A stretch of DNA of 64,000 nucleotides, taken from assembly GCF_900465055.1 (NCBI RefSeq), contig NZ_LS483250.1, positions 124,001 to 188,000 on the forward strand, in the 5' to 3' direction. Source of the DNA: Moritella yayanosii (GTDB taxonomy: Bacteria > Pseudomonadota > Gammaproteobacteria > Enterobacterales > Moritellaceae). Every line of letters starts with the position of its first letter. Positions within the stretch are counted from its first letter, which is position 1. The notes beneath the pieces are model-generated. The model was not told the origin of the DNA, ran no database searches, and worked only from the letters and a program-made list of their open reading frames with translations. Below, piece after piece: positions 19,040-53,173 of this stretch. The translations under genes and the position numbers were made by a program.

Positions 19040-19106
19040 CCTTAGACCATACCTCGCTTTAATGTTTAATATTTGTTTCAAAATGTGACTTGTGCATATA
19101 TGATAC

Positions 19107-19121
19107 TGATAATTATTATCA
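19107..19121. promoter_or_regulatory. Fur box in the divergent mbtH / NRPS promoter
   Basis: TGATAAT-T-ATTATCA is a perfect 7-1-7 inverted repeat. Extended over 19108-19126 it matches the 19-base Fur consensus at 16 positions by my count. TTGTGC (19090) and TATTAT (19114), 18 bp apart, could form the rightward promoter overlapped by the box. It should repress both mbtH-receptor and hydroxylase-NRPS transcription when iron is plentiful. Confidence 0.85.
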
Positions 19122-19175
19122 TTACCATTCAAAGTTCACTTTATTTTATTATTATTTTCACATGAGATTTTAATT

Positions 19176-20152: not shown

Positions 20153-23100
20153 ATGGAATTAGAACAAACTCAAGTGGAACAAAACGACAAAGGACTTAGA
20201 CTCGATATATCTTCGAACCAGAAATCGCTGTGGTTTTTGTACAAGCTAGCCCCTGAATCTTCCGCTTACAATATGTATTTCTCTACCTTGTTAGGCGGCA
20301 GAGAGCAACATGCTATTGATATTAATTTATTGGAGCAGAGTTATTATCATACGATAGAGCATCATGATGCGCTTAAAACGGGTTATCAACAAGATGAAAA
20401 GGGGGTTTATGCTTTTCTCGCCCCGCATAAATCAGCGGATTTTTCTGTTGAAAACCACCGTTTCACCGAAACAGAAAAGGATGATTGGATAGCAAAATGC
20501 GCTGATCAGCCATTTGAATTAGAGCAAGGTTATGTGTGCCGAGCGAATGTGTTGATAAATGACACCGATGGTAAGGTAACACCTTATTTAATTGTGACAT
20601 TGCATCATATTGCTGGTGATTTTTATTCTATTGAGCAAATGGTTGCTACTTGGGCTAAGTATTATTCTCAGCTTGTTGATGGCACAACGGATCCTGCACC
20701 GTCAGTTCAATATAGCCAGTGGGTTACAGAACAAAAGCAATACCTTGCTTCAGATGCTGCAGATAAAGCGTTAGCGTTTTGGAAAAGTGAGTTAGCTCCC
20801 TTACCAGCACCTTTGTCTATTAGTACGGATTTTGAGCGTGGAGATATTCAAAACTTTGATGGTTGTGAATTGCAATTCGATGGTAATCAAGCGCTGACGG
20901 ATAAAGTTACTGCGTTGGCTCGTGAGACTAAGACCACATCATATACTGTCTTGCTAAGTGCTTTTCAGTTTTATTTACATAAACTGTCTGGTCAATCTAA
21001 GTTTCTGATTGCGTCGCCAACGATGGGGCGTTATAAGCGATCCCATAAAGAAATTGTTGGTTATTGTGTTAATCCTTTTCTTATTCCTGCTGATTTTACA
21101 GAGCCTTGTAACTTTACTGAGTTGATCGTTGAACGTGCTCGTTTTTATCGTCAATCATTGCGGCATCAAAGAATGCCTCTGACAGAAATCAGTGAAGCAT
21201 TGATAGATAATAGAAGTGCGGAACGCACCGCGGTTACTTCGCATATGTTTACTTATACACGTGCTAATGACCGTATTATGGGTATGCCGATATCCGATCA
21301 TATAATTGACTCGGGACAGCGTGGTGCTGCACACGAACTTAATTTAGTTGTCTATGAATATGAGAACTCGTTTCGTTATCACTGGCGTTTTAATTCTTCA
21401 CTATATACTGCTGAAACGATCACCGCGATTGCCGATGGATTCTTTGAACTCTTAGATGAGTTGCTGTTAGCACCTCATAAATTGCTTATTCAGCATCAGT
21501 TCAAAGCTTGGTTGCCGGATGCTAAACCCGTAACCCCTGGTTACGAAACTGGGTTGGCGATGTGGCAAGATATTGCGCCTACGCAGCCAGCATTATTATA
21601 TAACGAACAGGTATTAACTGTTGCAGAGATAAGTGAACAAGCATCTCGTTTAGCCTATGCACTGTCGCAATCCAATGTGAACCATCGCGATCGCGTTGCT
21701 ATTTTATTACCACGGGGTGTAGAGCAAGTTATCGCGATGCTTTCAGTTTGGTATGTCGGGGCTGCTTTTGTTCCGTTAGATGATGGTCAGCCTAATGAAC
21801 GTACACAAATAATGCTTAAAGAAGCAGATGTCGAAGTGTGTGTTGGTGCTGGCAGCAGGCCTGATTGGTTACCCGAGATTTATCATTGGTTAGACGCGAC
21901 TGATGTTTTAGCTCAAGTCTCGCAACCCTTGGTTAAGCCTCTTACATTATGTGCGGGGGATCCGGCTTATTTAATCTTTACTTCTGGTTCGACTGGGATA
22001 CCCAAAGCCGTGTCTGTTGGGCATGGTGCACTGGTTTCGTATGTCGAAGCTATAAATCGTCGCTTAGATCTACCAAAAAATAGTGTGTATGCGAGCCTTG
22101 CTAGTGTGGCTACTGATTTAGGCTATACGGCACTTTGGGCTGGATTATTATCTGGGAATCAAGTGCGTATTTTAGATCAAGCGTTCATGCTTGATGCTGA
22201 AGGATTAGCTGATCACTTGGCTAAATATCCAGTTGATATGCTTAAAGTTGTCCCTTCTCATTTACAAGGATTATTGGCATCGGAGCGTAGTGAAATATTA
22301 CCTCGACACACTTTAGTCTTTGGTGGTGAAGAAGTTAATAATAGCTTACTTGAACAGCTTCGCGTTTATTCCTCTGAGCTCAATGTTTTTAATCATTATG
22401 GACCAACTGAAACAACGGTAGGTGTTATTGCGGGTCGTTTACTTGCTGGTGAGCCTACAGCTTTAGGAACGCCGCTTGATGGTTGTCGAGTTTATCTATT
22501 AGATAGTTTGCTTCAAGCTGTCCCTGTTGGTGCTATCGGCGACTTGTATATAGCGGGTAATCAGTTAGCGCAAGGATATTGGCAAGATAGCGCGAAAACA
22601 GCGCAGCATTTTATGAGTGATCCGTTTTATTCTGGTGAGCGTATGTATCGATCTGGAGATCGAGCGAAACAGCTGGCAGACGGACGAATTAAATTCATTG
22701 GTCGAGCTGATGGTCAAGTTAAAATTAGAGGGCATAGAGTTGAACTAGCTGAAATTGAAATTCAGCTTAATGCGCTGGATGGTGTTGTTGAAGCCGCCAT
22801 TGTATTCGATAAAACCGAAGGGCGTGAAAAACTCACCGCCGTGGTTGTTAGTAAGCAAGATAAAACAGAGTTATCTCGTTTATTATCAATGAGTTTACCT
22901 AGCTATATGCAACCGCATTATTGGCATTCAGTCGCCGAAATACCGCGTACGATTAATGGTAAAGTTGATCGAAAAAAATTAGCTTTAAACCTGAATAATA
23001 GCACGAATGAATCCGATTCAGTAATGTCGTTAAGTTCAGATCAAGGCGTTCTATTTTTCTGTCGCTTGTTTGCTAAAGTCTTGAATAAGCAGGCTAATGA

Positions 23101-26100
23101 GATAACTAGTCGTGATGGTTTCTTTGCTGTTGGCGGTGACTCTATTTTAGCGTTGCAGTTAGTGGCAATCGCTCGAAAAGAAGGCGTTAAATTAACACCT
23201 CAGTTGTTATTTAAACATCAAACACCGGTTGAGTTAGCAGAGGTTATGGCCGATCAATTACCGCTGTCGGATCCTAAGGAAAAACTTCATGAGCAAGCTA
23301 TATCAGCACTCGCTCAGCTATGGTCAATGACGTTATCAAAGCAACATGTTGAGTCGAGTGATAACTTCTTTGAAATAGGAGGTGATTCTATTTTAGCGCT
23401 GCAGTTTATTGCTGCTGCACGCAAGAAAAATATCATTCTGCGTCCTCAGGATGTTTTTAAATATCAAACACTGGCTGATTTAGCGTTGTTTATTGTGCCG
23501 CAGATAGAAGAACAAAATGCGAGTACTGAGCAAATATCGTCTACGACAGTGATGAACACTGAGCAAGTTGTATCTCGTTATGATCTTGATATTTTACCTG
23601 AAACGTTAACCGTTGAGGATGTTACTGCAAACATTTCTACCCGTGATTTAAATACTATTTGCCAGGATATACCGGCATCTTTAATTGATGATTTGTTACC
23701 GCTGTCACCTACTCAACAAGGGATATTGTTCCATTGTTTGTTGGATCCGCAACCGGAATTGTATTTAAACGTAACGAGCATGGCTCTCACTGGTAGCATA
23801 AATACAGACGCATTTCTTGCCGCATGGAAAAGCGCAGCACAGCGTCATGATGTAACCCGAAGCCGTTTTATTTGGCATGATCTTGAACATCCTTATCAGG
23901 TGGTATGCCGACATACTGAGATGAATACAGTAATGCGAGATTGGCAGGCATTATCGATATCGGAACAGAACGCTAAATTTGAGGAACTCGTCGCCGAAGA
24001 GCATAAAATTGGATTTAAACTGACAGATGCACCGCTTATGCGCGTGATTTTAGTTAAATTATCCCCTCAAGATCATCGTCTAATATGGACGCGTCATCAT
24101 TTGATCGTAGACGGTTGGACATCGGCATTAATTGCGGGTGATGCGATGGCTATTTATCAGCAAAAAGATTTACAACCAGCGCCGCATTATGCCGACTATT
24201 TCTCTTGGTTAGGTCGTCAAGACATGGCATATGCGGGAAAAGAGTGGCAAGCGTATTTAGCTGACTTTACCCAAACGACACATTTACCTGGTCCAGAAAC
24301 ACCGATGCAAGGGCAAAAAAATTGCCAGTATCAAATAGCCGAGTCGGTTACGCAGAAGTTGAAGGCGCAGGCTAGAGCACATGGTTTAACGTTAAATACG
24401 TTAGTGCAACTGGCGTGGGGGATTACGTTAAGTCGATTTACTGGTGGTTATGATGTGATATTTGGAATGACGTCTGCTGGACGCCCGCAGGAAGTTTCTA
24501 ATATTGAGCATATGGCTGGCGTGTTCATTGCTAGTTTACCATTACGTACTCGTTTCAACCCCGCTGAACGATTAGTTGATTGTGCAACAAAATTACAGCT
24601 CGATGCATCTGAGTTACGAAGCATTGATTACATGCCACTTGCAGAGATCCAATCGTATGTTGATCTAGAGCCTGGAGAGTTACTGTTTGATACCGCACTG
24701 GTATTCCAAAACTACCCATTTCCTCAAGAACTGAGGGATATGACCACGCCAAAATTTGATCTGCTGGAGGTATCTGAATCAAGTAATTTCCCGATGATGT
24801 TACAAGTTGAGCCTAGTCATGTTCTGAATATCAATTGTTCTTTTGATACTCAAAAAGTCTCACAAGATTTAGCGACTAGAATGTTAACCATGCTTGACGC
24901 GGCGCTAACCTATCTTTCTGAAGACGTTGATACGTATACTTATCAACTCATTGATTTGTTAACGTTACCTACAGTCGTGAATGAAGCTCAAGTGGATTTA
25001 CCTGCGAAGTGGGATTGGTTAGATCAAGTTCAATTACGTGCGAATGAAGATGGTGAAAGCCTAGCCCTGATTGCTGACGATCGCCAGTTAACTTATGAAG
25101 AGTTAGTTGCTGAAGTGTCAGAACTCGCTGGCGCTATGGCTGGATTAAACCTCAATCATGAGCAACCGATAGCGGTTTGTTTAACACGTAAAGCTGATCT
25201 TGTTGTTACTTTATTAGCTATTTATCAATTGGGCTTATCTTATATCCCATTAGATCCATTGCTGCCAGAACGCCGCTTGGAAGATATTTTTAATCAAGCT
25301 AAACCTCAGTTAGTGATAGCGGATCGGACTTTCGACTCTGCACCTTGTCTCTCTCCTACAGAACTGAAAAAACAGTCTAAAGGGTCTGGGCCTGTCGTTG
25401 ACTGCCACCCAAATACATTGGCATACACTATTTTTACATCCGGCTCTACAGGCCGCCCTAAAGGTGTTCAGATTGATCGTTCCGCGTTAAATTATTTCTT
25501 ACAAGCGATACAGGATGTAGTGAATATATCTGCTGAAGATCGACTGTTGGCTGTGACCACGATTGGTTTCGATATTGCTGTATTAGAATTATTCTTGCCT
25601 TTGGTGCACGGTGCGACCTTGGTGTTAGCTAACGAGCAACAGAGTAAAGATAACCAAGCATTAAGTCAGCTATTATCACAGCATAAAATCAGTGTGATGC
25701 AAGCAACACCTACAACATGGCAAAGCTTAGCGGATATTGACACTGCTTGGTGGTCATCACTTAATGTTCTGACTGGTGGTGAGGCGTTGAATGCAGCATT
25801 AGCTGAATTATTGATAAAAAAATCAGCGAGTGTGACGAATGTTTATGGTCCAACAGAAGCAACCGTTTGGGCATCAAGTTCGCGTGTTGAGCATGTAACA
25901 GGCAAATTAGCGGCGCTTGGTAAGCCATTAATTAATACTCAGTTTTATGTTTTAGATAGCGCACTTCAGCCGGTATTGTCAGGGGTTGAAGGTGAGTTAT
26001 ATATCTCAGGATTAGGGTTGGCTCGCGGGTATTTAAACCGGCCTAAATTAACCGCCGAGAGTTTCTTACCTGATCCTTTCTCACAAGCTCCGGGACAGCG

Positions 26101-26773
26101 TATGTATCGCACTGGCGATCGCGTTTATTTCGATGCGAAAGGTGAGTTGCAGTACATAGGTAGAACTGACTTCCAAGTGAAATTACGTGGATTTAGAATT
26201 GAATTGGGTGAAATTGAAGCCGTGCTTCAAGCGCAAACCGGTGTTAAGGAAGCTATCGCTTTAGTATGGCAAGCGGATACTGAACATGGCTATATAGCTG
26301 CTTACGTCACGTTACGTAAATCTGCAGTCTTAGACAGTGAACTGCTGTTACGCCTGATTGCCGAGCATTTACCCGTTTATATGGTACCAACTGAACTTGT
26401 GATCCTCGATGCAATGCCATTGAACAGTAATGGCAAAATCGATCGCAAAGCGCTGCCAGAATCAGATAGTCATGGGATGGGTCATTACTTATCGCCACAA
26501 ACTGAACTTGAGCATCAATTAGTGGATATTTGGCAACAAATCCTAGAGCATGATCAGATAGGTATCCAAGACAGCTTCTTTAGACTAGGAGGCAATTCGC
26601 TTTCTGCCACTCGTCTACAAGCTAGAATCCAGCGAACATTCAGCGTACAGATCCCATTAGCTGAGTTATTCCATAATCCGACAATTGCCGAACTTGCCAC
26701 ACTTTTAGAAAAAGAGTCGTTGCAACAAGATGATCTGGCAATGATGGCTGATCTACTAGACCAATTTGAGTAA
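20153..26773 (+). CDS. Nonribosomal peptide synthetase 1: C-A(Asp)-T-T-C-A(Gly)-T
   Basis: 2206 aa. Order: condensation (HHIAGDF, H151/H152, D156), adenylation (TSGSTG near 608, NGK near 935), two tandem carriers (GGDSI, Ser near 997 and 1079), condensation (HHLIVDG, H1315), adenylation (core near 1760) and carrier (GGNSL, Ser 2149). Reading the ten specificity residues gives D-L-T-K-V-G-H-V-G-K for module 1 (Asp) and D-I-L-Q-L-G-V-V-W-K for module 2 (Gly). An N-terminal C domain on the first module suggests an acyl starter, but no fatty-acid ligase is nearby. Module 1 has E-type carriers and a D-L-like C domain after it, yet no epimerase. AGGAAA precedes ATG 20153. Confidence 0.93.
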   Translation: MELEQTQVEQNDKGLRLDISSNQKSLWFLYKLAPESSAYNMYFSTLLGGREQHAIDINLLEQSYYHTIEHHDALKTGYQQDEKGVYAFLAPHKSADFSVENHRFTETEKDDWIAKCADQPFELEQGYVCRANVLINDTDGKVTPYLIVTLHHIAGDFYSIEQMVATWAKYYSQLVDGTTDPAPSVQYSQWVTEQKQYLASDAADKALAFWKSELAPLPAPLSISTDFERGDIQNFDGCELQFDGNQALTDKVTALARETKTTSYTVLLSAFQFYLHKLSGQSKFLIASPTMGRYKRSHKEIVGYCVNPFLIPADFTEPCNFTELIVERARFYRQSLRHQRMPLTEISEALIDNRSAERTAVTSHMFTYTRANDRIMGMPISDHIIDSGQRGAAHELNLVVYEYENSFRYHWRFNSSLYTAETITAIADGFFELLDELLLAPHKLLIQHQFKAWLPDAKPVTPGYETGLAMWQDIAPTQPALLYNEQVLTVAEISEQASRLAYALSQSNVNHRDRVAILLPRGVEQVIAMLSVWYVGAAFVPLDDGQPNERTQIMLKEADVEVCVGAGSRPDWLPEIYHWLDATDVLAQVSQPLVKPLTLCAGDPAYLIFTSGSTGIPKAVSVGHGALVSYVEAINRRLDLPKNSVYASLASVATDLGYTALWAGLLSGNQVRILDQAFMLDAEGLADHLAKYPVDMLKVVPSHLQGLLASERSEILPRHTLVFGGEEVNNSLLEQLRVYSSELNVFNHYGPTETTVGVIAGRLLAGEPTALGTPLDGCRVYLLDSLLQAVPVGAIGDLYIAGNQLAQGYWQDSAKTAQHFMSDPFYSGERMYRSGDRAKQLADGRIKFIGRADGQVKIRGHRVELAEIEIQLNALDGVVEAAIVFDKTEGREKLTAVVVSKQDKTELSRLLSMSLPSYMQPHYWHSVAEIPRTINGKVDRKKLALNLNNSTNESDSVMSLSSDQGVLFFCRLFAKVLNKQANEITSRDGFFAVGGDSILALQLVAIARKEGVKLTPQLLFKHQTPVELAEVMADQLPLSDPKEKLHEQAISALAQLWSMTLSKQHVESSDNFFEIGGDSILALQFIAAARKKNIILRPQDVFKYQTLADLALFIVPQIEEQNASTEQISSTTVMNTEQVVSRYDLDILPETLTVEDVTANISTRDLNTICQDIPASLIDDLLPLSPTQQGILFHCLLDPQPELYLNVTSMALTGSINTDAFLAAWKSAAQRHDVTRSRFIWHDLEHPYQVVCRHTEMNTVMRDWQALSISEQNAKFEELVAEEHKIGFKLTDAPLMRVILVKLSPQDHRLIWTRHHLIVDGWTSALIAGDAMAIYQQKDLQPAPHYADYFSWLGRQDMAYAGKEWQAYLADFTQTTHLPGPETPMQGQKNCQYQIAESVTQKLKAQARAHGLTLNTLVQLAWGITLSRFTGGYDVIFGMTSAGRPQEVSNIEHMAGVFIASLPLRTRFNPAERLVDCATKLQLDASELRSIDYMPLAEIQSYVDLEPGELLFDTALVFQNYPFPQELRDMTTPKFDLLEVSESSNFPMMLQVEPSHVLNINCSFDTQKVSQDLATRMLTMLDAALTYLSEDVDTYTYQLIDLLTLPTVVNEAQVDLPAKWDWLDQVQLRANEDGESLALIADDRQLTYEELVAEVSELAGAMAGLNLNHEQPIAVCLTRKADLVVTLLAIYQLGLSYIPLDPLLPERRLEDIFNQAKPQLVIADRTFDSAPCLSPTELKKQSKGSGPVVDCHPNTLAYTIFTSGSTGRPKGVQIDRSALNYFLQAIQDVVNISAEDRLLAVTTIGFDIAVLELFLPLVHGATLVLANEQQSKDNQALSQLLSQHKISVMQATPTTWQSLADIDTAWWSSLNVLTGGEALNAALAELLIKKSASVTNVYGPTEATVWASSSRVEHVTGKLAALGKPLINTQFYVLDSALQPVLSGVEGELYISGLGLARGYLNRPKLTAESFLPDPFSQAPGQRMYRTGDRVYFDAKGELQYIGRTDFQVKLRGFRIELGEIEAVLQAQTGVKEAIALVWQADTEHGYIAAYVTLRKSAVLDSELLLRLIAEHLPVYMVPTELVILDAMPLNSNGKIDRKALPESDSHGMGHYLSPQTELEHQLVDIWQQILEHDQIGIQDSFFRLGGNSLSATRLQARIQRTFSVQIPLAELFHNPTIAELATLLEKESLQQDDLAMMADLLDQFE

Positions 26774-26776
26774 ATT

Positions 26777-29700
26777 ATGAATCAGAATATAAATTCAATC
26801 AATATTGCAATGCGCTTGGCTAAATTGTCAAAAGAAAAAAAAGTGCAGTTTAGAGCCTTGTTAAAAGAAAAAAATATCGACAGTTGGCAATTACCTATTG
26901 TTGCTGCAGCAAGAGAAGATGAAATGGAAGTCTTGTCTAATGCTCAGCAGCGCCTGTGGTTTATAAACCATTATGAGCAAGGGAGTTCTGCCTATAATTT
27001 GTTTACGTGTTTAGACATAAAAGGTGATATTGATACTGGTGCGCTAAAATTAGCACTTCGAGAAGTGCTTAACCGCCACACTATATTACGCAGTACATAT
27101 CATGTTGTAGATGGTAAACCGATGCAACGAGCTGAAGTTGACTATGCGCTACCATTTTGGGCTGAATCGGATGTGCCTAATTTAGAACAACGCAGTTTGG
27201 CCGTCGCTGATGCGGTATTTGATTTAGAAAACGAGCTTCCTTTACGTATCTATCTATTATCAGATAAGTCCAAGCAGACCCGTTTGGTGTTTGTTGCACA
27301 CCATATTGCTTTTGATGCTTGGTCTGAAGCTGTGCTTGTTAAAGAATTCTCTGAATGTTATGCCCGTTTTACATCTCAGGGAAGCGTTCAAGCACCGCCT
27401 GTACCTGAACTGCAATATGCTGATTTTGCTCTATGGCAACAAGAGTGGCTTGAAAGTGAAGCTGCAGAGTTACAATTAAAATATTGGGAAAAACAGCTAA
27501 CAGGAATGCCTGAGTGTATGCCTTTACCCCTTGATTTTCCTCGTCCTGATGTATTATCAAGAACCTATCAGGGGGCTGAAGTTCAACTTGATGTCCCTGA
27601 CAACGTGTATCTTAAACTGCAGGATATGGCGAGAGAGCAAGGCACGACGCTTTATTCAGTGATGCAAGCAGGCTTTTCATTACTATTAAATCAGCTGGGA
27701 GCAGGCCAAGATATATGCTTAGGTACGTCGGTAGCGAGTCGTCAGCGCCCTGAGCTGGAAAGCATGATTGGCTTTTTGGTTAACACCCTTGTTATTCGCC
27801 ATCAGCTACAAGATAAGCAAAGTTTCAGACAGTTAATCGACCAAGTGTCAGAAACAACTCAGGAGGCGTTTGAGCATCAAGAGTTACCTTTCGATTTGGT
27901 TGTCGATAAATTGAATATTCCTCGAGGTAAAGCGTGGAGCCCATTGTTCCAAGTGCTTTTCGTTCATCGTAATGTTCCTCGTCAAGCTCTCCAACTGGGA
28001 GAACTGGAATTAACTCAGGTACCGCACCAGAGTAACCGTGCTCGTTTTGATCTCACGTTACGACTTACTGAAGATGATAATAAGTTGAGATTAGATTTAG
28101 AATATAGCCGTGAACTATTCAACGCCGAAACGGTTGTTGATTTATTAAATCGATATTTACAGTTATTAAGTGCGTGTTTAAGTACGCCTGATACGCTGAT
28201 CGATATAGATCCGGCTTTAGCTGTAAAAAGTCCAGTTGCACAGTCAGTAGCACATGATGCTACCGCTAATCACGTGTTAACGACTGAACCAGAATTACAA
28301 ATGACGAATCAGTTGATTGCTCTATTCACTGATATGCTAGGGCGTGAAGTGTCTGCGGATGACAGTTTCTTTGAGCTCGGTGGTGATTCCATTCTAAGCT
28401 TACAATTGGTCGCTAAAGCCAAAAAATCAGGTTTAACCTTGACGCCTAAATTATTGTTTAAGGCGCAAACACCGCAAGCGATAGCCGCTGCAATAATCGC
28501 CGAATTACCAACTAAAACTGTGCCTACTGTAACAGATATACCTTCGCAGTCACCGGCCTTACTTGCTGCATTTAAGCAGTTACTTGGTAATCAAGCATTA
28601 ACTGAGAAGGACAGTTTTTTTGAGCATGGTGGTGACTCTATCCTTAGTCTGCAGTTAGTCGCGAAACTAAAAAAACAAGGGATTAAAGTTACGCCAAAGC
28701 AGGTTTTCGCACTACAAACGCCTTACCATATCGCACAAGCTCTCGCTGCTAAGGAGGGGCCGTCCGAGATTATAGGCAATGAGTTATTGAACGATAATAT
28801 CAGTACGCCATCTGCATATTCGATGGCGCCAATTCAGCATTGGTTTTTTGAACAACAGCTTAAGCATGCCGCTCATTGGAATCAATCGGTACTCTTGAGT
28901 CACGATAACGTGTTAGACGTTACTTGTTTTACTAAAGCCGTAGAACAAGTGTTAGCAACGCACCAGCAACTAGCGATGAATTTCACGCCGACTAAAAATA
29001 GTGAATATCAGCAGTTTATTGGCAATCATCAGGTTGAAGTTTGTTCACACACTATTCATAGCGAAGCATTGCAATCTCAATTATCAAGTCTGCAAGGTAC
29101 GTTATCGTTTAGTGGAACTGCACCGATTCGAGTCGATTTATTTAAGTTAAGTGATCAACCACAAGGACGTATTTTATTTACGGCCCATCATTTGGTTATC
29201 GATGCTGTTTCTTGGCGTATATTAGTTACGCAAATTTGGCAAACTTACCAGTTATTGAGTCATGGACTTTCTACTGATGGCTCGTTAGAAACATACCAAA
29301 CCACATCTTATCAAGCATGGGTCGATGATTTGTTACATTGGCCTGAACATAAGATAAAGGCGGCACGTGATTATTGGTCGCCGATGGCAAACGAAGCTCA
29401 AGAAATTCAACAAACTTGGGTGTCATTGCCGATGAATAACTTAGACAATGCCCAAACAATTGAAAATCATATCCGCGATGTTGATGTTATTGAAGTCAAA
29501 TTACCTGCTCACTTGACTGAAAAATTGATTTCTCAGTCCTTGTCTGCTTATCAACTAAAAATTGATGAATTAATGCTTGCGGCTGTGACATTCGCAATGT
29601 CGCAATGGCGTGGTTCTAATACCATGTTGATTGAACTAGAAAGTCACGGACGTCATCATGATGACCTCGATTTATCACAAACGATAGGTTGGTTCACGAG

Positions 29701-32700
29701 TCGCTATCCAGTGTTATTAGCATCTATTGATAATTGTTCATCAGATTTACTGATGCGTCAGCATATTCTGTCTATTAAAGATCAGTTACGCGCAGTGCCT
29801 GATTATGGGCAAGGTTTTGGTGTGCTGAAGTATCTACATAATGAAGTGACGGAGCTTGTTACACCTGCTTTAGTATTTAATTATCTTGGTCAAATTGATA
29901 AAGGCATGTTGAGTCAAGGCGTTGGACTCGCGCCTGAGCAAATTCCTAATCAACGCCACGGTGATAATACTCGACCACAATGGTTAGACTTAAATGCAAT
30001 GATTACCGGCGGTGAATTAAGTATGCGCTGGAATTATAATACCTTGGTGCATACAAAAGATGAGATCGAGTTGTTGGCATTGACTGTCATCGAGTACTTG
30101 TCAAAAATGATTGAACATTGTGAGCATACTGATAATGCAATATCAAAATCTGAAGTACCATTATTGACGTTAACCCAACCCGAGCTTGATAGTTTAGTAG
30201 ATTTAATACCAGCTCCTCAAGACACCATAAAGGATATATATCCTTTAACGCCGTTACAAAATGGCATGTTGTTCCACACATTGTCAGAACAAAGCTTAGG
30301 TATGTATGTAAACCAAAGTCTGGTTGAGCTAAATGGAGAACTTGATGTTAAGGCATTAGAATCTGCTTGGCAGTGGGTAATCAATCAACATGATATGTTA
30401 CGTACAGGTTTTATTTGGCAACAACTAGATGAACCTATTCAATATGTTGTTAAAGAGTCACAAGTTGATTGGCAAAATATTAATTACCTTGGAAAAATAA
30501 CAAGCGAAGCAGAAGTTGAATTGACGGTATTAGCCGAACAAGAGATTGATACAGGGTTTGAGTTAAATAAAGCTGGCTTGATGCGTTTTAAATTAGTGAG
30601 ATTAGCAGAAAATCATCACTGTCTAATTTGGACTCGACATCATTTAATTGTGGATGGTTGGTGTACTAATTTGGTTATAAGAGAAGTACAACAAGCGTAC
30701 CTTGCTATATGTGCTAATCGTACCCCCGCTATTTCGAACCGCCCGCCGTTCCGAAATTTCATTGAATGGTTAGATAATCGAGAACTTAAGGAGAGTGAAG
30801 CATATTGGCAGCACTGTCTGAATGGTTATGAAACGATGGCGAGATTGCCTAGACCCTTTAACAGTAATTCGGGTGTTTCTCAGCAAACTGAACATTTATC
30901 AATAGAACAGACAGCGTCGCTGAAGTTATTAGCCGCGAAAAACCGCTTAACATTGAACTCTCTTTGCCAAGCTGTATGGGCGTTAACACTGCAACGATAT
31001 ACAGGCAGCAATGATTTAGTCTTTGGTGTTACGAGTGCAGGTCGACCCGATGATTTGGCTAATGCGAATGATATCGTCGGTGTATTTATTACAAGTATTC
31101 CACTTAGAGCACAACTTTCTGGTGAACAGAACTGGGTTGATTTAGCGCTTCAGCTACAAGAACAAATGGTTGAGAGTCGAGAGCATGAACATGTTTCTTT
31201 GTCGAATATTCAGCGTTTAACGGGCCATCAAGTAGACTTATTTGATAACTTGTTAGTATTTGAAAATTACCCTGCAGATAAACAACCAGTCGATCGCAGC
31301 CTCACATTAGCTGTACGTGAAACGACCGAGCGGAATAATTACCCGCTGACGATGATTATTATTCCACACCAACGTCTTGATTTTAGAATAGTCAGTAATA
31401 ATAGTCAGTTAGATTCAAGTATTGCGAATGCGTTACTTGCTGACTTTATGACGTTATTAGCGACATTAGCAAAAGGTGATACATCTGAAAAAACAGGTGA
31501 CGCATTAAGTTGTAAGGGGCTAGTTGATGAGCTAAATACTCATTCTGAGCAATCTCCAGCTTGGTTATTGAACCAAACTCAGTATGACTTTAGTCATCAC
31601 CCCGATACGCTTTCTACATGGCTTGAGCAACAAGCTCAGCTGACACCAGATGCAATAGCGTTAGTTTGTCAGCCATCAGAAAGAGTGACTGATAGTCAGG
31701 GAAATGAGCAAGAAATTGTATTAACTTATGCCCAATTGCACGAAAAATCGGCTCAGTTAGCGCATTACTTAATTAATGAACACGGCTGTAAATCGGAAGA
31801 TAAAGTGGCTGTTTGCATGACGCGTTCACCACAAATGGTGATCAGTTTATTAGCTATTTTAAAAGCGGGTTGCGCTTATTTACCACTTGATCCTGAGCAC
31901 CCATCACAACGTTTAGCTTATATTGCGGAAGATGCGAATGCAAAAGTAGTATTAACGCTAGAAACATGCAGCAATACGTTATCGAGTGAGCTTCAAAAAA
32001 CAGCAGTTATTGTGGATGCAGAATTGAAGATCTGTGCGAGCTACCCAACGACGGCACCTCAGGTTTGTATTTTACCAGAGCAGTTAGCGTATGTGTTGTA
32101 TACATCTGGCTCTACGGGTCAGCCTAAAGGTGTTGCGATTCCTCATGCAGGTATTGTTAACCGTCTGGCTTGGATGCAGCAGCAATATACATTAACAGAT
32201 CAAGATGTGGTGTTACAGAAGACACCTTATAGTTTTGATGTATCTGTTTGGGAGTTTTTCTGGCCGCTAATTACGGGCGCAAAACTGGTCGTTGCAGAAC
32301 CGAATGCACATAAAGACAGTGCGCGCTTAGCTGCTATTATCCAGCAACATCAGGTCACTACTATTCACTTTGTTCCTGCGATGTTGCAAGTATTTCTTGA
32401 CCACTCTACGGTGAGTGATTGTCGCTCGCTTAAACGAGTTATTTGTAGCGGTGAAGCTTTACCTTATCAACTACAGCAGCAATTTTTCCAACGCTTTGAT
32501 GCTCAGCTACATAATTTATATGGACCAACGGAAGCCTCTATTGATGTGACTTTTTGGGACTGTCGAAGTCAAGATATCCCCAATGTCGTTCCGATTGGTC
32601 ATCCTATTGCCAATATGCAAACTTGGATCCTTGATAAGGCATTAAATATTGTCCCTGTTGGTGTCGAAGGAGAGCTTTATCTCGCAGGGGTTGGTTTGGC

Positions 32701-33502
32701 GCGAGGTTACTTAGGTCGTGATGACTTAACGGGAAAAGCATTTATTGCGAATCCGTTTGCCGTAGAAGGCGCTAATACGGATGCTCAATTTAGTCGTCTG
32801 TATCGCACGGGTGATATTGCGCGTTATCGACCTGATGGTGCAATTGAATATGTGGGACGAGTTGATTTCCAGGTGAAAATTAGAGGGCTACGTATTGAGC
32901 TCGGAGAGATTGAAGCCTGCATAGCTGAACATCCCGAAGTGAAAGAAGTTGTCGTGATTGCTCGTCGTAGCGGCGAGACTAATGATTATTTAGCCGCCTA
33001 TGTTGTGGCAGAAGATACATCTGAGGGACAGCTGGATGACTTGTTGATGTGGCAGGCATTCCTACTCACCAAGCTGCCTGATTATATGATGCCGACGTTT
33101 GTGACTGTGTTAGCACAAATGCCCGTGACAAATAACGGCAAGATAGATCGTTCTGCATTACCTGAACCTAAATCATCTGGTCACGCTTTTGTGGCACCAG
33201 CAACCCCGACAGAGCATAAAGTCGCTTTATTGTGGCAAGACTTGTTAGGTGTCGAAGCTGTTGGACGAACCGATAACTTCTTTGCGTTAGGAGGACATTC
33301 ATTATTAATAACGCGTCTTGTTAATCAGATAAATAATATTTTTAGTTTAAATATTAGTCTAACGGATGTGTTAGCAATGACGGTGCTTGAACAGCAAGCA
33401 AGTTACATTGATATGCTGATTGCTCAAACACAAACACAAACACAAACACAAACACAAACACAAATTGAATCTGAAGAACAATGGGAGAGTTTTGAGCTAT
33501 GA
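26777..33502 (+). CDS. Nonribosomal peptide synthetase 2: C-T-T-E-C-A(Ser)-T, module lacking an A domain
   Basis: 2241 aa, starting 3 bases after NRPS1. Order: short helical N-terminal docking region, L-L-type condensation (SNAQQRLWF, HHIAFDAWS, H175), then directly two carriers (GGDSI, Ser 538 and 621) without any adenylation core motif between, epimerase (PIQHWFFEQ, HHLVIDAVSWRI, H804), D-L-type condensation (DIYPLTPLQNGMLFH, HHLIVDGW, H1288), adenylation (YTSGSTG at 1775, SFDVSVWEF) and carrier (GGHSL, Ser 2175). The only specificity code is D-V-W-H-I-S-L-I-D-K, i.e. serine. The first module must be charged in trans, or is skipped. The C-terminus carries a Gln-Thr repeat and an acidic tail that probably docks to NRPS3. 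Confidence 0.93.
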   Translation: MNQNINSINIAMRLAKLSKEKKVQFRALLKEKNIDSWQLPIVAAAREDEMEVLSNAQQRLWFINHYEQGSSAYNLFTCLDIKGDIDTGALKLALREVLNRHTILRSTYHVVDGKPMQRAEVDYALPFWAESDVPNLEQRSLAVADAVFDLENELPLRIYLLSDKSKQTRLVFVAHHIAFDAWSEAVLVKEFSECYARFTSQGSVQAPPVPELQYADFALWQQEWLESEAAELQLKYWEKQLTGMPECMPLPLDFPRPDVLSRTYQGAEVQLDVPDNVYLKLQDMAREQGTTLYSVMQAGFSLLLNQLGAGQDICLGTSVASRQRPELESMIGFLVNTLVIRHQLQDKQSFRQLIDQVSETTQEAFEHQELPFDLVVDKLNIPRGKAWSPLFQVLFVHRNVPRQALQLGELELTQVPHQSNRARFDLTLRLTEDDNKLRLDLEYSRELFNAETVVDLLNRYLQLLSACLSTPDTLIDIDPALAVKSPVAQSVAHDATANHVLTTEPELQMTNQLIALFTDMLGREVSADDSFFELGGDSILSLQLVAKAKKSGLTLTPKLLFKAQTPQAIAAAIIAELPTKTVPTVTDIPSQSPALLAAFKQLLGNQALTEKDSFFEHGGDSILSLQLVAKLKKQGIKVTPKQVFALQTPYHIAQALAAKEGPSEIIGNELLNDNISTPSAYSMAPIQHWFFEQQLKHAAHWNQSVLLSHDNVLDVTCFTKAVEQVLATHQQLAMNFTPTKNSEYQQFIGNHQVEVCSHTIHSEALQSQLSSLQGTLSFSGTAPIRVDLFKLSDQPQGRILFTAHHLVIDAVSWRILVTQIWQTYQLLSHGLSTDGSLETYQTTSYQAWVDDLLHWPEHKIKAARDYWSPMANEAQEIQQTWVSLPMNNLDNAQTIENHIRDVDVIEVKLPAHLTEKLISQSLSAYQLKIDELMLAAVTFAMSQWRGSNTMLIELESHGRHHDDLDLSQTIGWFTSRYPVLLASIDNCSSDLLMRQHILSIKDQLRAVPDYGQGFGVLKYLHNEVTELVTPALVFNYLGQIDKGMLSQGVGLAPEQIPNQRHGDNTRPQWLDLNAMITGGELSMRWNYNTLVHTKDEIELLALTVIEYLSKMIEHCEHTDNAISKSEVPLLTLTQPELDSLVDLIPAPQDTIKDIYPLTPLQNGMLFHTLSEQSLGMYVNQSLVELNGELDVKALESAWQWVINQHDMLRTGFIWQQLDEPIQYVVKESQVDWQNINYLGKITSEAEVELTVLAEQEIDTGFELNKAGLMRFKLVRLAENHHCLIWTRHHLIVDGWCTNLVIREVQQAYLAICANRTPAISNRPPFRNFIEWLDNRELKESEAYWQHCLNGYETMARLPRPFNSNSGVSQQTEHLSIEQTASLKLLAAKNRLTLNSLCQAVWALTLQRYTGSNDLVFGVTSAGRPDDLANANDIVGVFITSIPLRAQLSGEQNWVDLALQLQEQMVESREHEHVSLSNIQRLTGHQVDLFDNLLVFENYPADKQPVDRSLTLAVRETTERNNYPLTMIIIPHQRLDFRIVSNNSQLDSSIANALLADFMTLLATLAKGDTSEKTGDALSCKGLVDELNTHSEQSPAWLLNQTQYDFSHHPDTLSTWLEQQAQLTPDAIALVCQPSERVTDSQGNEQEIVLTYAQLHEKSAQLAHYLINEHGCKSEDKVAVCMTRSPQMVISLLAILKAGCAYLPLDPEHPSQRLAYIAEDANAKVVLTLETCSNTLSSELQKTAVIVDAELKICASYPTTAPQVCILPEQLAYVLYTSGSTGQPKGVAIPHAGIVNRLAWMQQQYTLTDQDVVLQKTPYSFDVSVWEFFWPLITGAKLVVAEPNAHKDSARLAAIIQQHQVTTIHFVPAMLQVFLDHSTVSDCRSLKRVICSGEALPYQLQQQFFQRFDAQLHNLYGPTEASIDVTFWDCRSQDIPNVVPIGHPIANMQTWILDKALNIVPVGVEGELYLAGVGLARGYLGRDDLTGKAFIANPFAVEGANTDAQFSRLYRTGDIARYRPDGAIEYVGRVDFQVKIRGLRIELGEIEACIAEHPEVKEVVVIARRSGETNDYLAAYVVAEDTSEGQLDDLLMWQAFLLTKLPDYMMPTFVTVLAQMPVTNNGKIDRSALPEPKSSGHAFVAPATPTEHKVALLWQDLLGVEAVGRTDNFFALGGHSLLITRLVNQINNIFSLNISLTDVLAMTVLEQQASYIDMLIAQTQTQTQTQTQTQIESEEQWESFEL
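33425..33464 (+). repeat. Hexanucleotide repeat (CAAACA)6 near the end of NRPS2
   Basis: Six perfect CAAACA units (33425-33460) plus CAAA. In frame they encode alternating Gln-Thr between the last carrier domain and the acidic docking tail. Gain or loss of units would keep the reading frame and only change linker length. Confidence 0.95.
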
Positions 33503-36500
33503 GTATTGCGGTTTATATTACAGAGTTATTTCAGCGCAATATTCGTATTAGCCTTGAAAATGGAAAATTAAAAGTGGAGGCCCCGAAAGGGGCTATAACG
33601 AGTGAGATTAAGCAAGAATTAATGAGCAAAAAACAGGCGCTTATTGATTATTGGCAAGAGCAGGAAAATATTAGCCAATTGCCAGCGTTAACCGCTGTAG
33701 ATCGTAGTGAACGTGATTTACCTATGTCATCAGCGCAGCAACGATTGTGGTTTTTACAGCAGCTTGAACCAGAGAGTAGCCAATACAATGTGAATGCATT
33801 ATTGGCGTTAAAAGGTAACGTGAATACGGTATTATTACGCCAAGCCTTTGCTGATTTGGTTATTGATCATGAGATCTTTTATACTGCATTTGCAGAAAAA
33901 ATGGGGCGTGCTGATGTACAACTGCTGTCGCCTAAATTGATTGCAGATGCGGTAAAAATTGATGAGATAAACTTGCAGCATTGTGATCAAAATATTGAAC
34001 ACAAAGATTATCAAGATGCCATTAAACAGGCGATGTCAGCACCGTTCAACTTGGCTGAACCGCCGTTATTTCGTTTAGTTCAATTGAAAATGAGCGATAG
34101 TTTGTCGCATTTGGTACTTAGCTTTCACCATATTGTTATTGATCATTGGTCGTTACAATTATTAACTAAACTTTTATTACAAAAATATAAAGCAGTACAA
34201 AAACATCAGCATAACGTGGATAGTTTGGGTTGTGATAACGGTGTTACACAGCCAAAGACTGTATTGCAATATTTAGATTATGCACATTGGCATAATCAAT
34301 TATTAGCAGGAGATCATTATCAAAAGTTAAAAGATTATTGGCTACAAACGTTAGGTACTGAGGACTATTGTTTAAGTTTGACGACTGATCATCCTAGAAC
34401 GTTAGACACAGGTCATCAGGGTGCTAGGTATAGTATAACGTTGGAACATGAAACGTTTACTGCTTTAAAGGCAACGAGTCTTGCACTTGGTTGTACACCC
34501 AATACAATATTGTTAGCAGCATACCAGTGGTTATTAGCACGTCACTCGGGAATGACAGATATTCGAGTCGCTTGTCCAGTAGCTGAGCGTGGTCATGTTG
34601 ATCTTGAGCATATGCTTGGCTTATTTGTAAATACGATGGTTGTCCGTGCTGAGTTGTCTTCTGGGATGACTGCGAGTGCTTGGTTAGATGTTGTACATAA
34701 GTCGATATCAGGCGCGCAAAAACACGCTGCAATGCCATTCGAGAAACTTGTTGATGAACTCAGCGATTCCCGCGAAGGTGAGCACGAGCCACTTGTACAG
34801 ACAATGTTTAATTATCTCGCGGTTGATTCAGCTGAGTCTGTCATGCTAGATGACATGAGTGTTACCGTATTGGCGATACCTGAGTTTCAGGCAAAATTTG
34901 ATTTATCATTATTTGTTGTTAATGATGGACAGGAAATTAACCTATCATTCCAATATAAAACGCAATTATTTGAATCTAGCACTATCGCACGATTAGCGGA
35001 AAAGTATATTTCAGGACTTAAGTATCTATTGTCAGCGCCGGATAAACCGCTTGCGAACCATTCCGCACTGTCTGCTCAAGAGTGGCAACAGCAGCAGCAA
35101 TGGAATGCTACTAACACAGAGTTTGATACACCTGCGACATTGACCGACGCTTTGATTGCACAACAACAAGCAACACCAAGCAATATAGCATTACGCTACC
35201 AATCGCTTAGTTGGACCTACCAAGAACTCGGCGATAGAGTCAACCAGCTAGCAAATTGGCTGATGGAACAAGGTTGTCAACCAGAAGATAAAGTGGCGAT
35301 ATGCATGACCCGTTCACCGCAAATGGTGGTGAGTATTTTAGCCGCAGTAACAGCGGGTTGTGCATATTTACCGTTAGATCCAGAACATCCTCAGCAACGC
35401 ATTGATTATATTTTAGATCACGCGAAACCGAGTGTGATTTTAGCGATGCCTGAATTTAGACAAGGATTATCCGAGTCAAATCAGTCTCATAATCTATGGG
35501 TGTTGGATGATTTATTTAGTTTGATTGCATCACAAAGCACAGTGTTTAAACCGTCATCTAATGTCAGTAGCCAGCTTGCCTATGTGCTGTACACATCGGG
35601 TTCGACGGGACAACCGAAAGGTGTCGCTGTACCTCATAGTGGCGTGATGAATCGAATCGCGTGGATGCAGGCTGAATATGGCTTGTCTACAGATGATATC
35701 GTGTTACAAAAAACCCCTTATAGTTTTGATGTATCAGTATGGGAATTCTTTTGGCCATTAATGATGGGGTCAACACTGGTATTAGCGGGTGCTGGAGAGC
35801 ATAAAGACAGTCAACGACTGATTGAGTTAATCAATGAATACAAAGTTACCACGCTGCATTTTGTGCCAGCGATGTTACAGGTTTTCTTAGATAACCCAGA
35901 TGCGAGCAGCTGTGTATCTTTATCGCGTATATTCTGTAGTGGTGAGGCTTTACCCTATCAATTACAGCAGCAATGTTTATCTAGTTTAACGGCTGAATTA
36001 CATAATCTGTATGGTCCAACGGAAGCTTCTATTGATGTGACTTATTGGGATTGCCGCAAGCAACATATTAAAGATGTGGTACCCATTGGCTTTCCTATCG
36101 CAAACATTCAAACTTGGATCTTAGATAGTGAATTGAATCCTGTGCCCGTCGGGGTTAGCGGTGAGTTATACCTTGCTGGTATTGGTTTGGCTAGAGGATA
36201 CTTGAATCGTCCAGACCTTACCGCAGAAGCCTTTATTCCTAATCCGTTCGCTGAGTCGGGCGCTATTGGCGATGCCCAATATAGTCGCTTGTACCGTACT
36301 GGTGATGTAGCTCGTTATCGTCACGATGGTAGTATTGAGTATGTAGGGCGTGCCGATTTTCAAGTGAAGATTCGTGGATTACGTATTGAGTTAGGTGAAA
36401 TTGAAGCGCGTATAGCAGAGTTAGAAGCGGTTAAAGAAGTTGTTGTTATGGCACGTAAAGAGGAACAAAGTTCAGCATACTTGGCTGCTTATGTTGTTGC

Positions 36501-39500
36501 ATCTGAGCGTAAAGCATTACCGGAACTTGATGAGTGGCAAACGCTGCTCTCAGCATCGCTGCCTGAATATATGATCCCAACAGTGTTTGTCGCTTTGGAC
36601 GAAATGCCGTTGAGTCAAAATGGTAAAGTGGATCGTAAAGCACTTCCACAACCTGATTTAGCTGTGCTAAATAGCAGTGATTATATTGCACCTACTTCTA
36701 GCAACGAAAGTATTTTAGTCGATATTTGGCAGTCTCTATTAAATATCAAGCAGGTTGGGATTAATGATAACTTTTTCGCCATTGGTGGTGATTCCATTAT
36801 TAGCTTGCAGGTTGTTGCTCGCGCGCGCGAAGCAGGGTTAACACTGCAACCAAAAGACATTTTTCGTCACCAAACGGTCAAAGCATTGTCCGCGGTAGCA
36901 ACACAAGAAGCTCAAGTCAGTTATAACCAAGATGATGTTTATGGCGATATCCCGTTAACGGCGATACAAGATTGGTATTTAGCGCAACCTTTACATAATC
37001 CAAACCAGTTTAACCAAGCGATTTTATTGGCAAGTAATAATGACATAGTGCCAGAATATCTACAGCAGGCGCTAACACGTCTTGTATTATCTCATCCTAT
37101 GCTGACGGCTCGATTTATGGAGTCTAAAAATAAACAAGGACAAGCTTGGACACAAAATACGTCTATTGATGACGAAATGACGATAGCATTCAATGTTATT
37201 GATTTTAATGATTGTGGCACGGTACAAAAGCAGGCTGAAATAACCAAATTATGTCAACGTGAGCAGACGCAGCTACAGCTACAAACAGGTGCGGTTTTCC
37301 GTGCATCATTACTACGTTTTGGATCATTGCAAGATGGACGTACGGACTATCGCTTACTGCTTGTTGCCCATCACCTGGTTATCGATGGTGTATCATGGCG
37401 GATCATATTAGATCAACTCAGCCATGATTATCTGCGTCTAGAACGCGGCGATAAATTGGCCGATATCGTCTATCAAACCACCCCCTTTAAACGTTGGGCT
37501 GAACAAGGCCAGCTGCAATCGATCGATGCTGAAGGCGTGGCACTTTGGCATGCATGGGTGAGCAATACAATGAATAGACAAGCGATTAAGTCACAGTTAC
37601 CGCTTGATCGTATTGTTAACAGTTTCCAACCTGGAGAGCAGGCTAATCAGCGATTTAGTTTAAGCCTAGCGCATTCTGAACGCTTGCTACGTGAGGCCGG
37701 ACAACCTCTTCGCGCTCGTATTGATGAATTATGTTTAGCTGCGCTGTCTAAAACATTAACTGAGTGGACCACAAATCCCAATCATTTGATCAACCTAGAA
37801 GGTCATGGTCGCGATCTATTAGATATGGATGTGAGCCAAACCGTTGGTTGGTTTACGCGTTTATATCCAGCAGTACTTAGCGCTGAACCAAATAGCTGGC
37901 GAGAGCAGATATTACAAACTCGTCGTCAACTCAGTGCGTTACCGGAGCAGATCGTCCCTTTTAGTTTAGCGCAGCCTTTGCTTACTACACAGGTTAAACC
38001 ACAAATCGTATTTAATTATTTAGGTCAGCTTGATACTCAGCAAGGCTTTATGCAGAAAGCGCCTGAACAATTATCTGAATTTAGAGACCTAGCTAACCCA
38101 TTAGCGTGGTTATTAGAAGTAAATGTCTTTATGCAAGAAGGGTTGTTAAAGGTTAATCTGCAATATGCACAACAGGCCTTTTTACCTGAAACGATTGAAT
38201 ATTTAGCCCAAGTATACCAAAGCCATTTAGAACATATGCTTAATGAGATCTGTGGGGTGAATCAAGTTAGCCATAACCTTCAATGTTTACCGGGTGCGAT
38301 TGCGGCTGATTTTCCACTTGCCAACATCACTGATATCCAAGCTCAAACGCTTGTTGAGAAATATAGCAACCAAGTTGTGGAAGATATCTACCCGTTGACA
38401 CCGGTGCAACAAGGCATGTTATTCCATTGTTTAGATCACCGTGATGCTTACATTAGCCAAAGTATCGTTAAATGCGAAGGTGAGTTAAATACGTCGGTCT
38501 TTGCTCAAGCTTGGCAGGCGGTTGTAGATAATCACCCCGCATTACGTACCGAATTGGTTATCGATGGTGTGGATGAACCGCATCAAATTGTACTAAAACA
38601 GGCTGATTTATCTGTTGTTGAATACGATTGGCAGGGGTTTTCTGTTGAGCGTAAAGCCGAAGCCCTTGCTGAATTACGTAATACCGAGCTAGCAGCTATC
38701 GAGTTGGATATCGCGCCATTAATGCGAGTTGCTTTAATTTGTCATAGTAAAGATGACTTCCAATTGGTCTGGACTATTCACCATTTGATTATGGATGGCT
38801 GGTGTTTGAATTTATTGGTCAGTGAAGTCATACAAGGATATGCTTTATTGTCAAATCAAACGTCGAATCCAGAATTTAAGGTTTCGCAAAAAATAGAGTC
38901 TGCGGTGCCGTTTAGCGACTTTATGGTTTGGTTACAAAAGAGAGATGAAGCTGCCGCCGAGGATTATTGGCGTCAGCAATTAGCCGGGTTTGAACAACCT
39001 AATAGTTTACCCGCAGCATATGTACAACCTCTTTCTAACACCTGTATACCAGAGGAATGTTATAGCATTTCACATCATATGATTGGTGAAGATAAATCTC
39101 GTCAGCTAGATGCGCTTTGCCAAAATAATGCGCTGACCTTAAATACGATGATCCAGGGATTATGGGGAATGGTTCTGTCCCGTTATATGGGGAGCCTTGA
39201 TATTGTTTATGGTGTTACCACCTCAGGTCGCCCCGCAGATTTACCGGGTGCAGATAAAATACTGGGTGTATTTATTAATACATTACCTCTGCGCCTAAAG
39301 CTAGACACAGAGACAAAATTAGGTGATTGGTTAACTGATATCCAGACTGAAAATCTCACAATGAGAGACTTTGAACAGACGCCTTTGGCTAAAATTCATC
39401 GGGTGACGTCGGTGCCTCAAGAAATGAGCTTATTTGAAAGTTTGTTAGTGTTTGAAAACTTACCAGCAAGTGATAATAAACCTCAAGATGGTTTGTTTTT

Positions 39501-51122: not shown

Positions 51123-51196
51123 AGAGCAGCTAATACCGAATAGATAGAAGCTAATCGAATAAAAATAAACACAATTTTAATATCACGGAGAATCTT

Positions 51197-53098: not shown

Positions 53099-53142
53099 CC
53101 GTTAATAAGCGTAATAAGGCCGAGTAATAGGCCGGGTAAATG

Positions 53143-53173
53143 AGGGGAGTCGCATTATTATTGCTCCCCTTTG
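53143..53173 (+). terminator. Hairpin between nosZ and nosD
   Basis: AGGGGAG (53143-53149) pairs with CTCCCCT (53164-53170) across a 14-base AT-rich loop, then TTT. It is probably a partial terminator that lets less transcript into nosDFYL. Confidence 0.6.

Follow-up and report, generated by a model that had tools for sequence, protein, structure and literature searches.

The nonribosomal peptide synthetase NRPS2 of Moritella yayanosii (26777-33502, forward strand; all positions refer to the window, i.e. the whole stretch of 64,000 nucleotides analyzed) opens with a condensation domain, two carriers and an epimerisation domain (C-T-T-E) and has no adenylation (A) domain in this module. The same A-less module was found in four assemblies from two genera, and it is probably a working module, the third of seven, of a beta-hydroxyaspartate line, charged with aspartate in trans by the first A domain of NRPS1; its conservation in relatives makes an A domain borrowed from the first module the most likely reading of these sequences.

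Domain order and conservation of the A-less module

NRPS2 is a single open frame of 2241 amino acids with the order C-T-T-E-C-A-T. A Pfam scan of the whole protein matched Condensation and PP-binding three times each and AMP-binding once, at residues 1616-1979, so that the part ahead of residue 1616 showed no match to an A domain; our own profiles placed the boundaries at C 50-476, T 502-574, T 584-657 and E 671-1114, followed by C 1153-1569, A 1611-2148 and T 2137-2212. Both sets of calls agree with a preliminary description of this DNA, which had read the first module as C-T-T-E without an A domain and had seen no A-domain motif before residue 1590. The C domain (26924..28204, +) carries the motif HHIAFDAWS (175), the carriers T1 (28280..28498, +) and T2 (28526..28747, +) each carry GGDSI (motif starts 531 and 614), and the E domain (28787..30118, +) carries HHLVIDAVSW (804), ESHGR (955) and TIGWFT (969), so that the frame is as intact, and the catalytic residues of C, T, T and E as well kept, as had been stated. 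The two carriers, previously called nearly identical, share only 51% identity, and the linker between C and T1, previously put at about 60 residues, measures 25 residues by our own profiles (28205..28279, +) or 37 by Pfam.

An A domain would normally occupy the position of this linker, and a hidden remnant of it was ruled out there. Scans of five sub-stretches covering the C-T linker, T1, T2 and E gave no match to AMP-binding or AMP-binding_C at E-values up to 10, and a profile made from the A domains of the cluster and of its three relatives returned, unfiltered, full scores of -0.8 bits at residues 474-515 and -1.7 bits at residues 440-675; the suggested profile check for an A domain in residues 440-520 thus found none. 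Downstream of the A-less module, the next C domain (30233..31483, +) is of the E-type and lies on the DCL side of the C tree, and the only A domain of NRPS2 (31607..33220, +) has the code DVWHISLIDK, which we take to specify serine.

The order C-T-T-E-C-A-T recurred as one frame in two assemblies of the same genus, with 97% (G007) and 90% (G010) identity to NRPS2, and C-T-T-E-C-A was found in one frame on a Vibrio harveyi plasmid (NZ_CP154268.1, whose record is given as complete), the C-T-T-E part being about 58% identical. The proposed search for this order in related genomes was thereby answered, and its repetition in all three records argues against an assembly deletion at about 28240. In the comparison of the window with G010, dN/dS was 0.09-0.18 across C, T, T and E, and the identity of the C-T linker was 36%. 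The dN/dS values indicate that the A-less module is under purifying selection and, with the open frame and the kept motifs, uphold its earlier characterization as functional rather than decayed. A decayed module was rejected, as there was no broken frame, no lost catalytic residue and no relaxed selection. That the missing A domain reflects an assembly error or a pseudogene is extremely improbable: its absence is the sole point in favor, and against it stand the concurrence of four assemblies, one of them the plasmid described as complete, the open frame and the same dN/dS range.

The assembly line and its neighboring genes

NRPS1 (20153..26773, +) has the order C-A(Asp)-T-T-C-A(Gly)-T and NRPS3 (33499..46833, +) the order C-A(Ser)-T-E-C-A(Asp)-T-E-C-A(Gly)-T-TE with a TubC_N docking domain; along the seven modules of the line the A codes are Asp, Gly, none, Ser, Ser, Asp and Gly. 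The first A domain of NRPS1 (21536..23038, +), the proposed donor, has the code DLTKVGHVGK, which the relevant part of PMC12283262 prints as a code for Asp and Asn, mostly Asp. The tandem carriers earlier ascribed to this module are present as two GGDSI carriers (23033..23497, +). The second A domain of NRPS3 (39754..41316, +), an alternative donor, has the code DLTKIGHIGK, presumably also for aspartate; the number of carriers in its module is one here (41326..41547, +), two in G007 and G010, and three in V. harveyi. The preliminary description was silent on this second Asp A domain and on the lack of an E domain in module 1. The second C domain of NRPS1 lies on the DCL side of the C tree, yet no E domain precedes it, and with a D-accepting C domain after a module without E, simple collinear stereochemistry does not fully hold. 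A lost E domain left no trace at this place, in that the NRPS1 T-C linker was absent from the 20 best matches of an E-C linker profile.

On both strands of the genome, 20 places matched AMP-binding, seven of which were of the NRPS type (at least 440 bits, the next scoring 139 bits). Six of these lie in the cluster and one in an A-T-TE elsewhere (code DACTIAAVCK); Asp codes occur in two of the seven, both in the cluster. With all seven so placed, no stand-alone Asp A-T was found, and a donor of the SyrB1 type was rejected, as no separate A-T protein of matching specificity turned up among these places.

Upstream of NRPS1 lies a stand-alone TauD-family dioxygenase (19176..20141, +; PF02668, 168 bits), a putative Asp beta-hydroxylase with HNE 107 and HSR 301, which we take to be the Fe-binding residues. 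Further genes encode an MbtH-like protein (18845..19132, -), a TonB-dependent siderophore receptor (16493..18805, -; TIGR01783, 302.2 bits against a cut-off of 223.5), a thioesterase (PF00975; 15710..16426, -), probably of type II as judged from size and place, and the membrane and ATPase parts of an ABC transporter (8007..9671, +). The opening gene of the matching set in V. harveyi is annotated as cyclic peptide export. The stand-alone TauD, the MbtH protein, the receptor and the A codes suggest a beta-hydroxyaspartate siderophore system; the traits of the TBH_Asp type that were found are the stand-alone TauD, two Asp-code A domains and an adjacent siderophore transport gene. Hydroxylase subtypes such as TBH_Asp are reportedly treated by Reitz et al. 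2019. Regarding the Lys/Orn oxygenase family, the five matches in the genome (best 45.7 bits over a partial profile, frames of 390-723 amino acids) do not discriminate, since matches also occur in 12 of 14 control genomes; the cut-off of the DHB dehydrogenase model was not reached in the one genome searched (0/1).

Proposed loading of the A-less module

In the proposed scheme, the Asp A domain of NRPS1 module 1 would charge the tandem carriers of NRPS2 in trans, with the MbtH protein assisting, and the stand-alone TauD enzyme would hydroxylate the aspartate while it is carrier-bound. The C domain would then couple OH-Asp to the acyl-Asp-Gly chain, and the E domain would convert residue 3 to the D form. 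The predicted product, including its putative acyl cap, is acyl-OHAsp-Gly-D-OHAsp-Ser-D-Ser-D-OHAsp-Gly, which would present three bidentate hydroxycarboxylate groups.

The carrier tree was computed from 81 of 336 carriers, made up of those from the own genome, V. harveyi, G010, G153, G243 and L056 and of a random draw of 28 of 106 other pre-E carriers and ten other pre-C carriers; G007 was not included, and one tandem carrier of G243 was removed by the length or motif filter. In a fraction of 0.856 of the 1000 bootstrap trees, T1 and T2 of NRPS2 formed one group with T1 and T2 of NRPS1 module 1. In all 400 trees examined, the closest carrier not from NRPS2 itself came from an Asp tandem module; it was an NRPS1 orthologue for T1 in 275 and for T2 in 268 of them (mostly that of V. 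harveyi). The Asp tandem carriers as a whole formed one group in 0.013 of the bootstrap trees. This kinship may stem from duplication within the cluster instead of shared loading. Among 280 parsed A-T modules with a full code (gapped codes left out, the window excluded and its relatives included, T-TE not counted as tandem), 10 of the 13 A-T-T modules have an Asp-code A domain (D[LA]TK); all ten lie in TauD-containing loci (six once orthologues are removed). TauD loci also contain 16 Asp-code modules with just one carrier. In G153, C-A(Asp)-T-T-E follows C-A(Gly)-T, which is the same local order with the A domain present.

Neither its E nor its C domain decides which substrate the A-less module takes. 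The ML bootstraps (IQ-TREE) placed its E domain (N2_E) with the NRPS3 Asp E in 0.41 and with the NRPS3 Ser E in 0.31; a group of every Asp tandem E domain that excluded the Ser E reached 0.023. The FastTree tree of 130 E domains favored Asp for N2_E and the IQ-TREE consensus paired it with the E of the Ser module, the support labels of both and of the C tree being possibly shifted, as they were printed after re-rooting. By E-domain score differences, the three Asp tandem E domains took ranks 1, 10 and 11 of 118, amid Ser, Thr and others. The first C domain of NRPS2, placed in the C tree through its orthologues, lay on the LCL side, and of its ten best matches none with a readable code stands ahead of an Asp one.

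Charging in trans by the Asp A domain of NRPS3 module 6, alone or together with that of NRPS1, is unlikely. The NRPS3 domain belongs to the same code class, its module has an E domain and, in the relatives' counterpart, tandem carriers, and the FastTree topology and the larger share of the ML bootstraps join its E with N2_E; however, the NRPS2 carriers group with those of NRPS1, and in 0 of 1000 bootstrap trees with the Asp carriers of NRPS3. GGDSI is common in carriers preceding an E domain, and module 1 has GGDSI carriers and a D-accepting next C domain despite lacking E, while module 3 lacks A; modules 1 and 3 may accordingly be complementary half-modules, in which A1 would load both carrier pairs, the E of module 3 would extend its epimerisation in trans to the residue of module 1 and all three iron-binding groups would be beta-hydroxyaspartate, a reading that we consider distinctly unlikely. 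A neighboring Ser or Gly A domain, most simply the downstream Ser A of NRPS2 working backwards, is a very unlikely donor: the Ser A domain is the closest in the chain, and part of the bootstraps and the IQ-TREE consensus join N2_E with the E of the Ser module, but the Ser-module carrier was the nearest in 0 of 400 trees and grouped with the NRPS2 carriers in no bootstrap tree, and neither the Ser nor the Gly modules of the cluster have tandem carriers.

Glycine has no chirality, so that skipping of the A-less module would make an E domain acting on a Gly-ended chain pointless. The retained catalytic motifs, the purifying selection and the position of the following C domain on the tree side that holds post-E C domains likewise speak against a module that is skipped or only relays the chain, with a peptide of six residues; this is quite improbable, although the A domain is absent and skipping has been proposed for other lines, e.g. 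thalassospiramide (in the pertinent part of PMC5577590). Loading by NRPS1 A1 thus remains the preferred reading.

Known systems and significance

In capreomycin biosynthesis, CmnI, a mid-line module without an A domain, is charged by the A domain of another module, for which the pertinent part of PMC12400406 gives experimental evidence from co-expression and mass. As far as that account goes, CmnI with CmnA-A1 and viomycin VioI, cases of a trans-iterative A domain, resemble the Moritella module in being a mid-line module 3 without A that an earlier module's A domain loads, and an MbtH-like protein is common to the capreomycin and Moritella clusters. CmnI, as described there, has one T, one C and no E, whereas the Moritella module has the order C-T-T-E and tandem carriers, lies in a cluster of siderophore type and is loaded as predicted above; the CmnI-type traits found in it are C and T without A, and motifs kept across species. 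The earlier remark that trans-loading of a mid-line module with an epimerase is uncommon stands insofar as such borrowing is seldom met in this form, but it overstated the novelty, since with the capreomycin precedent the Moritella module is not the first of its kind.

Other modules without a working A domain are charged in trans in syringomycin (SyrE module 9 with SyrB1), albicidin, ramoplanin and enduracidin, where the donors are stand-alone A-T proteins according to the section of PMC8949500 concerned; none of the Asp type was found in the Moritella genome. For thalassospiramide, it has been proposed that A domains from other places in the line charge the carrier of one module (PMC5577590, same part). 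This case differs in concerning the first module and, in Tistrella, a truncated A domain, and that account speaks of neither tandem carriers nor an E domain. Beta-hydroxyaspartate metallophores with a stand-alone hydroxylase, such as those of the TBH_Asp type and potashchelin (PtcA), share with the Moritella cluster a stand-alone TauD and Asp A domains, according to the parts of PMC12971057 and PMC7100376 on these systems; the potashchelin line as printed comprises nine modules, every one with its own A domain and one PCP, and includes no A-less module. A literature search, which is not proof of absence, found no description of this cluster, of a C-T-T-E module or of a siderophore with three beta-hydroxyaspartates.

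According to the part of PMC12400406 cited above, trans-acting A domains of bacteria have so far been demonstrated by experiment to a limited extent. If the proposed loading is true, this would be a second natural case, with the donor NRPS1 A1, its native T1/T2 and the trans carriers T1/T2 of NRPS2 within one cluster, and the presence of all three in one cluster in two genera would make the basis on which one A domain serves two modules directly testable. Genome-mining programs that assign one residue per A domain would overlook position 3. The NRPS3 Asp module, which has from one to three carriers across relatives, offers a way to examine whether carrier number helps hydroxylation. Should all three Asp modules be active, they would yield an all-beta-hydroxyaspartate chelator, a type of which, to our knowledge, none has been described.

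Domain organization of the NRPS genes

The genome of M. yayanosii is a single contig of 4.43 Mb, in which the three NRPS frames are consecutive. Domain order, determined with profiles from the cluster and its relatives, was C-A-T-T-C-A-T for NRPS1 (20153-26773), C-T-T-E-C-A-T for NRPS2 (26777-33502) and C-A-T-E-C-A-T-E-C-A-T-TE for NRPS3 (33499-46833), all open frames; the Pfam counts of C/E, A and T stretches were the same. An A domain is missing from the first module of NRPS2 (C-T-T-E, the third of seven). In this module the C domain ends near residue 474-476 and the first of the tandem carriers (T1, T2) starts near residue 502-512; over this linker region the Pfam AMP-binding profile yielded no match even at an E-value of 10, and an unfiltered A-domain profile gave negative scores. 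The module without an A domain noted in the preliminary description was thus confirmed, as were, by the profile order of NRPS1, tandem carriers in its Asp module.

The A codes along the cluster, taken from an alignment of the A domains at what we assume to be the code positions, were DLTKVGHVGK, DILQLGVVWK, DVWHISLIDK, DVWHFSLIDK, DLTKIGHIGK and DILQLGVVWK. The last five are presumably those of Gly, Ser, Ser, Asp and Gly, and the predicted substrates, module by module and on partly assumed codes, are Asp, Gly, none, Ser, Ser, Asp and Gly. A passage of PMC12283262 prints DLTKVGHVGK as a code of Asp and Asn.

Upstream of the NRPS genes are a stand-alone TauD dioxygenase (a putative Asp beta-hydroxylase, with HNE and the distal His present), an MbtH gene and a TonB siderophore receptor. 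At an E-value up to 1e-60, 13 of the 394 genomes sampled from the order had a TauD match. Downstream, translations inspected by eye suggested a set of nos genes for nitrous oxide reductase (48918-56958), and beyond it, likewise by eye, a cluster of aryl-polyene or fatty-acid type seems to begin (59540-63674); the methyltransferase within the latter (59540-60610) was checked by search.

Conservation of the A-less module

NRPS2 has the same domain order in the same-genus genomes G007 (97% identity) and G010 (90%). On the V. harveyi plasmid NZ_CP154268.1 the match spans residues 1-2241 (57.5% identity); C-T-T-E-C-A lies in one frame, and there is a break near the 3' end. At this locus NRPS2 and NRPS3 are each annotated as two genes, split near the 3' end (approximately 26699-26754 and 39469-39557), for which sequencing error and decay are both possible.

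A 321-residue query reaching from the end of C to the start of E was compared (E-value up to 1e-25) with samples of the order (394 genomes) and the class (369 genomes), both drawn from larger groups. Five genomes of the order yielded matches: three at full length, all of the same genus and including the genome itself, and two, G153 and G243, by the T-T-E part only; the one match in the class sample was the genome itself. Of 72,556 plasmid records, three matched 80% or more of the query's length, and among the 12 records listed V. harveyi alone spans it in one piece.

Between the window and G010, dN/dS was 0.091 (C), 0.097 (T1), 0.110 (T2) and 0.181 (E) in the A-less module, and 0.036-0.145 in the other measured domains except one carrier (0.459); the C-T linker changes freely. 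The module, judged from its sequence, is real and kept. The open frame and these ratios uphold the earlier view of a functional rather than decayed module, and the C-T-T-E order sought in related genomes does occur there, in G007, G010 and the V. harveyi plasmid.

Tandem carriers and the predicted loading domain

The parsed loci hold 280 A-T modules whose code is complete. T-T occurs in 13 of them, and 10 of the 13 have the Asp code D[LA]TK, each in a TauD-bearing locus (six once orthologues are removed). Tandem carriers thus appear to mark Asp modules here, a link that is not general since, of 35 Asp-code modules, 16 within TauD loci and 9 in other loci have a single T. C-A-T-T-E with the A domain present was found in G153, G243 and a Thalassomonas locus (L056); given the Asp mark, the A-less module looks like C-A-T-T-E minus A. 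The Asp module of NRPS3 differs in its carriers: G007 and G010 each have a pair (90% identity between the two in G007), V. harveyi has three, and the window has a single one (41326-41547), where real loss or a collapsed repeat may be involved. Contig C22 of G243 (3108-aa and 2796-aa frames) holds a related cluster in which one TauD is stand-alone and one is fused; two of its modules are Asp modules with tandem carriers, and a C-A-T-C-T-C-A-T stretch contains a further C-T unit lacking A.

The E domain of NRPS2 grouped with the Asp E domain of NRPS3 in 0.41 and with its Ser E domain in 0.31 of bootstrap trees, and all Asp tandem E domains came together without the Ser one in 0.023; FastTree favoured Asp. 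The E tree does not settle the substrate, on which the C domain of the module is likewise uninformative.

In a tree of 81 chosen carriers, NRPS2 T1/T2 and the T1/T2 of NRPS1 module 1 formed one group in 0.856 of 1000 bootstrap trees, and in none were the NRPS2 carriers grouped with Asp or Ser carriers of NRPS3; all Asp tandem carriers formed one group in 0.013. The nearest carrier outside NRPS2, checked in 400 trees, was an NRPS1 orthologue, mostly that of V. harveyi (T1 275, T2 268), the first Asp tandem carrier of L056 (T1 124, T2 131) or a V. harveyi NRPS3 carrier (one each). The genome has 20 AMP-binding places, of which seven reach at least 440 bits with the NRPS A profile, six of them in the cluster; none of the others exceeds 139.3 bits. 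From carrier kinship and this survey, the Asp-code A domain of NRPS1 module 1 is the most likely donor, followed by the second, also Asp-code, A domain of NRPS3. Loading by the former is inferred from kinship, and duplicated carriers could resemble each other without a common loader. Outside the cluster, 1572000-1584000 of the genome contig encodes an 897-aa A-T-TE protein (code DACTIAAVCK), with frames of the same size in genomes G005 and G009; it adjoins two genes weakly matching the Lys_Orn_oxgnase family.

Module 1 of NRPS1 and comparison with known systems

No E domain lies between the tandem carriers of NRPS1 module 1 and the second C domain (23033-24949). In a tree of 291 C domains, all 77 directly preceded by E fall on one side and none on the other; the second C of NRPS1, represented by its orthologues from three relatives, belongs to the post-E side and is of the D-accepting type. 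The D of GGDSI is present in the module 1 carriers. Among single carriers this D occurs in 118 of 123 that precede E versus 9 of 117 that precede C; it need not signal a lost E, because a GGDSI tandem pair of G243 directly precedes C without E. In a search with a profile of E-C linkers, the T-C linker of NRPS1 was absent from the 20 best hits and so gave no sign that an E had been lost there. The homologous first C domains lead C-A(Asp)-T-T-E in G243 and L056, and C-A(Gly)-T in G153. Since module 1 without E precedes a C of D-accepting type while the A-less module has no A, a bolder reading is that they may be two half-modules sharing one A and one E.

For capreomycin, mass spectrometry proved that CmnA-A1 loads CmnI, a module 3 that lacks an A domain (PMC12400406); trans A-T donors are reviewed in section 14 of PMC8949500, and thalassospiramide is a proposed trans-loading case (PMC5577590). 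Trans-loading of an A-less module is already known from CmnI. What appears new against these cases, as described there, is that the A-less module has tandem carriers and an E, that it occurs in two genera, and that it sits in a cluster of the beta-OH-Asp siderophore type.
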